47,933 bases of DNA from an uncultured Eggerthellaceae bacterium. GTDB taxonomy: Bacteria; Actinomycetota; Coriobacteriia; Coriobacteriales; Eggerthellaceae. Both the position numbers and the translations under genes were made by a program. The stretch's first letter is position 1. The number at the start of each line of letters is the position of its first letter. The stretch covers positions 1-47,933 of the forward strand of contig CAJFUR010000061.1 in the NCBI GenBank assembly GCA_904420215.1. The letters run 5' to 3'. Positions 5,744 to 17,036 of this stretch are shown piece after piece. Below the pieces are notes generated by a model. It was not told the origin of the DNA. It was given only the letters and a program-made list of their open reading frames with translations, and did not search any database.

Positions 5744-5771
5744 TTGACGAACAAACATATGTTCGTATAAT
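5744..5771 (+). promoter_or_regulatory. recA promoter with LexA (SOS) box in the spacer
   Basis: TTGACG (5744-5749), 16-bp spacer, TATAAT (5766-5771); spacer contains CAAAC-ATAT-GTTCG (5752-5765), one mismatch from CGAAC-N4-GTTCG. Confidence 0.9.
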
Positions 5772-7605: not shown

Positions 7606-7687
7606 TTATCATCCCGAGCGGAGCGAGTCGAAGGATCTCGGGACGCCAAAGATCCTTCGACTCGCTCCGCTCGCTCAGGATGACAAT
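7606..7687. repeat. Long imperfect inverted repeat (REP/MITE-like intergenic palindrome)
   Basis: Left arm ATTATCATCCCGAGCGGAGCGAGTCGAAGGATCT and right arm AGATCCTTCGACTCGCTCCGCTCGCTCAGGATGACAAT are reverse complements apart from a 4-nt indel and a few mismatches. Confidence 0.85.
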
Positions 7688-15188: not shown

Positions 15189-15827
15189 CTACAGGCGGCG
15201 GAAGACGGCCACCACTTTGCCGGCAATGGAGCAGTCGCGGGTGATAATGGGGTCCATGGACGAGTTCTCGGGCTGCAGGCGAATGTGGTCGGCCTCCTTG
15301 TAGAAGCGCTTCACCGTCGCCCCGTCGTCTATGATGGCCACCACGATGTCGCCGTTGTTTGCGACGGGCTGCTCCTTCACCACCACGTAGTCGCCGTCGT
15401 TGATGCCTGCCTCGATCATGGATTCGCCACGCACCGACAGGAGAAACGACGGCGCGTCTCCCACGATGTCGGTGGGCAGCGTGATGGTGTCGGTGATGTT
15501 CTCTTCCGCGAGAATGGGCGAACCGGCCGCCACGTTGCCCACGAGGGGCACGTTCACCAGCTTGCTGAAACTCGGTTGGACGACGTTCGATTCGGGCATG
15601 GCGTCGTCGAGCGGGTACGTGAGGGCAATGGAGCGCGACTTGAGGGGGTCGCGCTTGATGAGGCCCTTGTTTTCGAGCGCCTTCAAATGCACGTGCACCG
15701 TGGAGGGGGAGGACAGGCCCAGGCTCTGGCACACTTCGCGGACCGTGGGGCCATAGCCCTTTTCGCGGATGCATTCCTCGATGCAGTCGAGCACCGCCTG
15801 CTGGCGCTTCGTCACCTTGTCGGCCAT
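15189..15827 (-). CDS. lexA: LexA repressor
   Basis: MADKVTKRQQAVLDCIEECIREKGYGPTVREVCQSLGLSSPSTVHVHLKALE; cleavage region NVAAGSP, Ser in RGESMIEAG; start at 15827 preceded by a GGGAG RBS. Confidence 0.97.
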   Translation of the reverse strand: MADKVTKRQQAVLDCIEECIREKGYGPTVREVCQSLGLSSPSTVHVHLKALENKGLIKRDPLKSRSIALTYPLDDAMPESNVVQPSFSKLVNVPLVGNVAAGSPILAEENITDTITLPTDIVGDAPSFLLSVRGESMIEAGINDGDYVVVKEQPVANNGDIVVAIIDDGATVKRFYKEADHIRLQPENSSMDPIITRDCSIAGKVVAVFRRL

Positions 15828-15848: not shown

Positions 15849-15862
15849 CAAACATTTGTTTC
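15849..15862. promoter_or_regulatory. LexA box A (lexA-proximal)
   Basis: CAAAC-ATTT-GTTTC. Confidence 0.7.
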
Positions 15863-15864
15863 AG

Positions 15865-15878
15865 GGAACAAATGTTTG
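15865..15878. promoter_or_regulatory. LexA box B
   Basis: GGAAC-AAAT-GTTTG. Confidence 0.75.
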
Positions 15879-15887
15879 AAATTCTTG

Positions 15888-15916
15888 TTGACATGAACCT
15901 TTGTTCGCCTTATTAT
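15888..15916 (+). promoter_or_regulatory. Promoter of the SOS membrane-protein gene with LexA box C in the spacer
   Basis: TTGACA (15888-15893), 17-bp spacer, TATTAT (15911-15916); LexA box TGAAC-CTTT-GTTCG at 15894-15907. Confidence 0.88.
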
Positions 15917-15921
15917 ATATG

Positions 15922-15935
15922 CGAACAAAGGTTCT
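15922..15935. promoter_or_regulatory. LexA box D over the expected transcription start
   Basis: CGAAC-AAAG-GTTCT. Confidence 0.85.
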
Positions 15936-15959
15936 ACGCAAGGGCTGGGAGGTAAAAAG

Positions 15960-16370
15960 ATGAAGAATTTCGAGACGCATTACCCCACGCAAGGCTCGGC
16001 GGCCCTCAGCCCGCGTTACGAGGAAATGCCTGTTCGGCAAGGCATCATTATCGCATTTCCCGGCCAGGGGAGCAGGGATGGGCAAGACGGCGCCTTTGGC
16101 GCCGCGCATCCGTCACGCCCGGAGCGTCCCCTGCATGCGAAGCACGGAAGATGCGAGGCGCTGCAGTCCCCGTCGCAATCCCCGGCGGCGCATGCGGCCA
16201 AAGGCGTCCGCCACGCCACGGGCCGCCTCATGCAGACCGAGTTCGTGTCCAACGTGCGCCACGGCAGCGCACAGGGCGTTCCGTTCGGCCGCATGTCGCG
16301 CTGGCAGGCAGTCATGGTCGGGTGTGCGTTCTCGGCCTTGGCGTTCGCTGCGCTGTTTCTGGGAATTTAG
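15960..16370 (+). CDS. Uncharacterised SOS-regulated protein with C-terminal TM segment; candidate cell-division inhibitor (YneA/DivS/ChiZ positional analogue)
   Basis: 136 aa; RBS GGGAGG; C-terminal WQAVMVGCAFSALAFAALFLGI; divergent from lexA with four LexA boxes; followed by nrdR. Confidence 0.75.
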   Translation: MKNFETHYPTQGSAALSPRYEEMPVRQGIIIAFPGQGSRDGQDGAFGAAHPSRPERPLHAKHGRCEALQSPSQSPAAHAAKGVRHATGRLMQTEFVSNVRHGSAQGVPFGRMSRWQAVMVGCAFSALAFAALFLGI

Positions 16371-16506: not shown

Positions 16507-16546
16507 CACCGCCCACAGTTGCTGCGTTCTGTGGGCGGTGCCTTTT
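16507..16546 (+). terminator. Intrinsic terminator between SOS gene and nrdR
   Basis: CACCGCCCACAG (16507-16518) / CTGTGGGCGGTG (16529-16540), 12-bp perfect stem then CCTTTT. Confidence 0.85.
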
Positions 16547-16557
16547 GTGGTATGATA

Positions 16558-16583
16558 CCTTCGTTTCAAAGGCGAAACGAAGG
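16558..16583 (+). promoter_or_regulatory. Inverted repeat overlapping the nrdR ribosome-binding site
   Basis: CCTTCGTTTC-aaaggc-GAAACGAAGG, then AGTGCCATG; TATGAT -10-like element just upstream (16551-16556). Confidence 0.6.
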
Positions 16584-16589
16584 AGTGCC

Positions 16590-17036
16590 ATGCGCTGTCC
16601 CGCTTGCAGTCACCTCGAGTCGAAGGTGGTCGATTCGCGCCCCTCGGAAGACGGCACCTCCATCAGGCGGCGCCGCGAGTGCTTGGACTGCGGCTACCGC
16701 TTCACCACCTACGAACGCCTGGTGGACAATCCGCTCATCGTGGTGAAGGCTGACGGCTCCTCGGAAGCCTATGACCGCCAAAAGCTCATGCGCGGCCTTC
16801 TGACGGCCTGCGCCAAGCGCCCGATCTCCCCCGAGCAGATAGGCGACGTGATAGACGACATCGAAGCCGAGCTGCGCAACGCCTCGAAGAACGAGATCGG
16901 CTCGAAGCAGCTCGGCGACATGGCGCTCGTGCGACTTGCGAAGCTCGACGACGTGGCCTACATACGCTTCGCGAGCGTATACAAGGATTTCCAAAGCGTC
17001 GGGGAGTTCGCCACGGCGCTGGAAGGACTGCGCTAA
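16590..17036 (+). CDS. nrdR: Transcriptional repressor NrdR
   Basis: MRCPACSHLESKVVDSRPSEDGTSIRRRRECLDCGYRFTTYER. Confidence 0.97.
   Translation: MRCPACSHLESKVVDSRPSEDGTSIRRRRECLDCGYRFTTYERLVDNPLIVVKADGSSEAYDRQKLMRGLLTACAKRPISPEQIGDVIDDIEAELRNASKNEIGSKQLGDMALVRLAKLDDVAYIRFASVYKDFQSVGEFATALEGLR

Follow-up and report, generated by a model that had tools for sequence, protein, structure and literature searches.

What is the function of the small gene that separates lexA from nrdR in Eggerthellaceae? We found no paper on the SOS response of this family in the open-access literature, and the gene is a candidate for a damage checkpoint in bacteria that are common in the human gut. The DNA analysed here (the window) is a 47,933-nucleotide stretch from an uncultured Eggerthellaceae bacterium, in which a 136-codon frame lies between the two genes and is divergent from lexA. 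An initial annotation had read this frame as encoding an SOS-controlled, tail-anchored protein and had proposed it as a new cell-division inhibitor; sequence and domain models bear out its placement of the gene and of both neighbours (Table 1). Judged by LexA, the named genera nearest to this genome are Gordonibacter, Rubneribacter, Adlercreutzia, and Ellagibacter, and the lexA-x-nrdR gene order is kept in relatives. In mycobacteria, nrdR also lies near the lexA-chiZ locus.

Table 1. Features of the lexA-nrdR interval and the recA operator of the same window (strand is given where a feature has one).
Feature	Position	Strand	Remarks
LexA operator in recA promoter	5752-5765		CGAACATATGTTTG; internal standard for the box
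lexA	15189-15827	-	LexA DNA-binding and S24 peptidase domains; TIGR00498 (3.4e-68), PF01726, PF00717
lexA start codon	15827	-	ATG, with ribosome site AAAGGGAG; read from sequence
Box D	15849-15862		CAAACATTTGTTTC; weak LexA-like palindrome in lexA leader; not generally conserved
Box C	15865-15878		GGAACAAATGTTTG; LexA operator in lexA leader; CGAACAAATGTTTG in most relatives
-35 of small-gene promoter	15888-15893	+	TTGACA; columns 87-91% conserved
Box A	15894-15907		TGAACCTTTGTTCG; in spacer of small-gene promoter and over expected lexA start site
-10 of small-gene promoter	15911-15916	+	TATTAT; motif scan
-10 of lexA promoter	15912-15917	-	TATAAT; overlaps small-gene -10; read from sequence
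Box B	15922-15935		CGAACAAAGGTTCT; over expected start site of small gene and in spacer of lexA promoter
Proposed -35 of lexA promoter	15936-15941	-	TTGCGT; 18-bp spacer; weak, putative assignment
Ribosome-binding site of small gene	15948-15952	+	GGAGG; read from sequence
Small gene (136 aa, tail-anchored, predicted SOS-controlled)	15960-16370	+	ATG at 15960, stop at 16370
Motif 1 codons	15981-16013	+	YPTQGSAALSP; family consensus YPVxGTSALxP; common to LysM-bearing relatives
Motif 2 codons	16044-16061	+	IIIAFP; family consensus IIxFP
Juxtamembrane segment codons	16230-16310	+	Family consensus LRxGxxxGxxFGRxxxWQA, running into helix
Transmembrane helix codons	16299-16361	+	Residues 114-134; AlphaFold2 and hydropathy; ends two residues before C-terminus
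Likely terminator between small gene and nrdR	16507-16540	+	12-bp stem, 10-base loop, CCTTTTG; read from sequence
nrdR	16590-17036	+	TIGR00244 (4.9e-57); far neighbour in lexA-x-nrdR order

We do not take the small gene and nrdR to form a single operon by default, since a strong stem followed by a run of T lies between the two; the hairpin scan picks up only the inner five pairs of this stem, whose 10-base loop exceeds its limit. An extended -10-like TATGAT lies directly 5' of nrdR, after the stem-loop (window 16540-16590), and TTGTATGAT-like sequences recur upstream of nrdR in relatives. A promoter of its own is probable for nrdR. Elsewhere in the window (7610-7685), a long and almost perfect inverted repeat (GAGCGGAGCGAGTCGAAGGATC...) lies between recX and rny and resembles a mobile REP-type element.

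The region between lexA and the small gene holds four LexA-like sites in 87 bp, a clustering with a Poisson probability of ~7e-6 at the window's own site rate. All four palindromes reported in the initial annotation are present, and boxes A, B, and C are conserved in relatives with a spacing of ~28 bp. The box at 15849 is off consensus and mostly missing in relatives, so three boxes, rather than the four originally claimed, define the locus. Box B is the reverse complement of box A except for one end base. Covariation of the central four bases between boxes A and B (39 identical vs 29 expected, with a maximum of 41 in 2000 shuffles) is not counted as evidence. Elsewhere in the genome, ruvC has one LexA box upstream. 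A search for the box pattern returned overall as many boxes as its control, and only recA, lexA/small gene, and ruvC are therefore taken as likely SOS targets. The operators make SOS control of the small gene by LexA a nearly certain prediction. A perfect LexA-type box (CGAACATTTGTTTG) also occurs in a related locus (L180, ~1500), upstream of an unassigned 309-aa minus-strand frame that is possibly a further SOS gene.

The promoter TTGACA-N17-TATTAT at 15888-15916 agrees with the consensus at 11 of 12 positions (shuffles give 0.2), and the earlier reading of this near-consensus promoter, with one box in its spacer and a second over its start, stands. Absent from that reading was a lexA promoter built on the same boxes. 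A leftward TTGCGT-N18-TATAAT would drive lexA and the rightward promoter the small gene; the two opposed -10 elements share five bases. Box A occupies the spacer of the rightward promoter and covers the expected lexA start, and for box B the arrangement is reversed. A gapless alignment of 104 family genomes on box B gives the consensus TTGACA-t-GAACnTtTGTtCG-ntn-TATtaTAtaca-CGAACAaAGGTTCT-an-GCAAG, in which the T and A columns just 5' of box B are 98% and 95% conserved and the GCAA columns 3' of it 91-100%. These columns lie outside the LexA boxes and the ribosome site, and we attribute their retention to their role as elements of the leftward lexA promoter. The same layout, TTGACA-box-(-10)-box, is seen by eye in loci of family f10 (e.g., L124 and L250). 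Promoters with such pseudo-symmetry form a known class whose two directions may compete with each other (PMC12825309), and this locus clearly illustrates LexA placed on a bidirectional promoter of symmetrical build.

Conservation beside lexA in relatives, on which the initial annotation had staked its proposal beforehand, was assessed in the lexA upstream regions of 108 Eggerthellaceae genomes. In 92 of them (85%), a small gene lies next to lexA and its product terminates in a hydrophobic helix; the distance from box B to the start codon is most often 24 nt and usually 16-27 nt. Start codons were picked by a scoring rule that rewards motif and helix, so these counts lean slightly to the family pattern; shuffles and dN/dS are independent of the rule. 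A G-[TSN]-x-A-[LRIVM] motif occurs in the first 40 residues of 76 of the 92 proteins, compared with 1.2% of shuffled sequences, and the family has three conserved blocks: YPVxGTSALxP, IIxFP, and LRxGxxxGxxFGRxxxWQA. A protein search finds significant relatives only beside lexA, and a profile of 22 members finds no paralogue of the small gene in its own genome. A phage origin was also considered and rejected: tblastn gives no match in 50,697 phage records, the promoter pattern is absent from IMG/VR, and one weak PHROG match (E 0.099) falls on the helix region.

The protein was originally described as having a disordered N-terminus and a C-terminal transmembrane helix, which the AlphaFold2 model reproduces: residues 114-134 form a confident helix (block pLDDT 88-95), and the chain before residue 113 is of low confidence (pLDDT mostly 47-72) and looks disordered. 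With a pTM of 0.30, only the helix of this model is meaningful, and no solved structure was found for the protein. Pfam and NCBIfam yield no domain in the 136 residues, LysM included, as the earlier reading by eye had concluded, and the YneA model NF010723 matches neither the window protein nor 21 relatives.

The origin of this unmatched protein becomes apparent outside the family. In the sister families f4 and f10 (probably Atopobiaceae and Coriobacteriaceae) and in the more distant families f12, f15, and f23 of the class Coriobacteriia, the same lexA-x-nrdR slot encodes a protein with a transmembrane helix followed by LysM. The LysM model PF01476 is found in all six slot proteins tested, once below cut-off, and the NCBI YneA equivalog model (NF010723) matches five of five LysM slot proteins (9e-12 to 1e-16), of which one passes the curated cut-off. 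Among 300 Coriobacteriia genomes searched, the YneA model finds a match in 188, spread over f4, f10, f12, and numerous other families; the matches listed are one per genome and include no Eggerthellaceae genome. The LysM match lies beside lexA in all 12 f4/f10 genomes with both coordinates listed. In these two families, the YneA-like protein beside lexA is often the sole LysM protein of the whole genome. Five Eggerthellaceae genomes have LysM anywhere, none of them at the lexA locus, and the window's own genome (an assembly 85% complete) has none. LysM remnants downstream of the small-gene stop were looked for in Eggerthellaceae loci, and none was found.

The two forms have in common the N-terminal motif G-T-S-A-L ... 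I-I-x-F-P and the transmembrane helix. With an HMM built from the first 48 residues of the Eggerthellaceae proteins, four LysM proteins outscore all 1900 shuffled decoys, and eight LysM proteins come out on top of 652 natural open-frame products. The rank test against natural decoys gives p = 6e-9 for f4/f10 and a marginal p = 0.02 for the class outgroups; the homology is short and clear mainly for f4/f10. Bridging sequences include L236 (YIDGTSALKIDDGQDRFTVLPGG, no LysM) beside L128 (YQTSGTAALAPRKNAFTVHEG, LysM). An NrdR tree, built on few columns, has the LysM outgroups outermost, followed by a clade that largely lacks LysM. The f4 LysM loci form a single clade (97), the LysM-free families f1, f5, and f8 group with a support of 80, and the position of f7 is unresolved. 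The fewest changes of LysM state on this tree are two, and its simplest reading would be loss of LysM in the ancestor of the f1, f5, and f8 group. Slot, N-terminal motif, and tree together make a strong but, given the short alignment, not absolute case that the protein descends from a YneA-type LysM protein. The proposal of a division inhibitor, which had rested on position beside lexA, thereby becomes an argument by descent, since slot relatives match the YneA model and the N-termini are related. As for the novelty originally claimed, the protein does lack a family-library match, but it appears to be a stripped-down relative of YneA and ChiZ rather than a member of an unrelated family.

In 14 close pairs, dN/dS is 0.11-0.54, and by these ratios the small gene is under purifying selection. 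No frame was found in 16 of the 108 genomes, in one of which the contig ends there; with ~15 of 108 family genomes lacking the gene, it is dispensable in some lineages. LexA boxes are kept and the small gene is absent at L058/L134, L048/L212, L144, L164, L226, and L230, with nrdR directly next in most; there, the operators are presumably retained for lexA itself. In one genome (G010, locus L113), the gene looks frameshifted, with the start codon in one frame and GTSALKPQ in another, and this copy looks like a pseudogene or an assembly error. Such a copy would be expected of a decaying YneA remnant that ceased to inhibit division after LysM loss and is being eroded, as would the repeated shortening and outright loss inside the family and the fast divergence of the protein (53% identity within a genus vs 95% for LexA). 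Erosion is nevertheless improbable, given that dN/dS stays below 0.55 in every pair, that pN/pS is 0.28 even in the 23-aa forms described below, that ribosome site and start spacing are kept, and that 85% of genomes retain the gene.

Within Eggerthellaceae, protein length runs from 188 down to 23 aa. Forms of 33-34 aa occur in Parvibacter-like genomes, forms of 44-49 aa are found in the family f5, and the short Eggerthellaceae forms are nested among longer ones in the NrdR tree. Products of 23 aa, such as MARYEFPIAFALSTIASFVIFFA, occur in Adlercreutzia caecimuris, A. hattorii, A. equolifaciens, A. muris, and others (L039, L041, L045, L047, L132, L155, L213-L216, and L218); these loci retain both the ribosome site and the usual start position, ~24 nt after box B. 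Variable sites in these frames fall on 19 of 22 third codon positions vs 17 of 44 of the other two (p = 2e-4), a pattern that marks them as probably coding; peptides so short would probably be missed by routine annotation. One group thus displays a natural truncation series under the same operators, from LysM protein through tail-anchored protein, 33-34-aa peptide, and 23-aa peptide to loss. The helix is the part that survives in every member.

Single hydrophobic helices of 23-34 aa also invite comparison with DinQ and TisB, SOS membrane peptides that lower membrane potential or ATP and force dormancy rather than act on the divisome. SOS-induced single-pass toxic peptides do exist, as DinQ illustrates (PMC3567139), but descent from a LysM/YneA protein beside lexA, a long conserved cytoplasmic part in most members, and the lack of any known RNA family in the locus make this function quite unlikely here. 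The conserved cytoplasmic part could instead belong to an SOS-controlled membrane adaptor that tethers, for example, a repair or protease factor through GTSAL/IIxFP and has no direct effect on the divisome. Outside the helix, conservation is highest in the N-terminal motifs, whose presence in the LysM form also shows them to be old. The 23-34-aa forms lack these motifs, however, and several other members carry weak versions of them, while no member is without the helix, and we regard an adaptor role as very unlikely. Each of these rivals, erosion included, explains less than a LysM-free YneA derivative does.

We therefore return to division inhibition, which descent makes quite probable for the small protein. 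The wider issue is how Gram-positive SOS inhibitors stop division: YneA is said to block by its LysM domain, ChiZ can dispense with LysM, and SidA consists of hardly more than a helix. In Bacillus subtilis, the YneA helix binds transmembrane segment 7 of FtsW, and the transmembrane part alone localises but does not inhibit, LysM binding to peptidoglycan being needed (PMC13396833). A LysM-free protein must consequently work differently or may have lost activity. In Mycobacterium tuberculosis ChiZ, the disordered N-terminus and transmembrane helix suffice for filamentation (PMC7355643), and LysM appears unnecessary (PMC3989709). Since the Eggerthellaceae protein corresponds to exactly this part of ChiZ, we propose that it is induced in the SOS response, inserts through its tail helix, and inhibits FtsW/FtsI when the helix makes contact. 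Its own genome has FtsW/RodA genes and no SulA (PF03846), and the small gene itself has no Pfam match.

From operators, promoter geometry, conservation, selection, descent, and LysM absence, all read from sequence, we infer induction, topology, target, and effect on division as follows. The protein is likely to be a LysM-free derivative of the YneA/ChiZ group that acts as the Eggerthellaceae SOS checkpoint, stopping septal wall synthesis through its helix, most likely at FtsW or else at FtsI. In an undamaged cell, LexA on boxes A and B (and C) would shut the shared near-symmetrical promoter in both directions, silencing lexA and the small gene together. DNA damage would remove LexA, and the small protein would be made and inserted by its C-terminal helix, so that the N-terminus stays cytoplasmic and hardly any of the protein is exposed outside. 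Helix and juxtamembrane segment may then dock on the septal wall synthase, FtsW having about an even chance of being the direct partner, and the docked helix would halt septum synthesis until repair is finished. GTSAL... and IIxFP could serve as contact sites in the cytoplasm or mark the protein for turnover, and the shortest members would do without them. CtpA-type proteases clear YneA and SosA. The Eggerthellaceae protein offers such proteases no outside domain, and turnover would thus be cytoplasmic or intramembrane; that IIxFP is the turnover signal is speculation.

A bolder version, to which we give slightly less than an even chance, is that YneA-type inhibition is carried by the helix alone and that these bacteria discarded LysM and, in Adlercreutzia, all but a 23-residue helix, keeping SOS control and function. 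If true, LysM would be an accessory rather than the inhibitory part, and the Adlercreutzia peptides would be the smallest SOS division inhibitors known. The finding matters because B. subtilis YneA needs LysM to inhibit and ChiZ and SidA do not, and with the truncation series, short synthetic genes are enough to test directly which part stops division.

Compared with known systems, the Eggerthellaceae protein resembles YneA of Bacillus and Listeria (NF010723) in its divergence from lexA, its LexA boxes, and its single transmembrane helix, and relatives in the Coriobacteriia slot match the YneA model. It differs in having neither LysM nor any extracytoplasmic domain, in its C-terminal helix, and in its lack of a match to that model. 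ChiZ (Rv2719c), compared by layout rather than sequence, likewise adjoins lexA and combines a disordered, predicted cytoplasmic N-terminus with a transmembrane helix, but carries a linker and LysM outside. SosA and DivS both do without LysM (PMC6851548). DivS of Corynebacterium glutamicum, compared by description only, is a lexA-adjacent SOS division suppressor (PMC6851548, PMC3989709) that differs in its predicted extracellular C-terminus (PMC6851548). SosA of Staphylococcus aureus is also divergent from lexA and has a single transmembrane helix (PMC6851548), but this helix spans residues 10-30 and precedes an active extracellular C-terminus, the reverse of a helix that stops two residues short of the C-terminus. 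SidA of Caulobacter, a 29-aa SOS-induced membrane protein that acts on FtsW (PMC4211646), is of about the same size as the 23-aa Adlercreutzia forms; the likeness is one of size, which the Coriobacteriia forms reach by reduction from a LysM protein.
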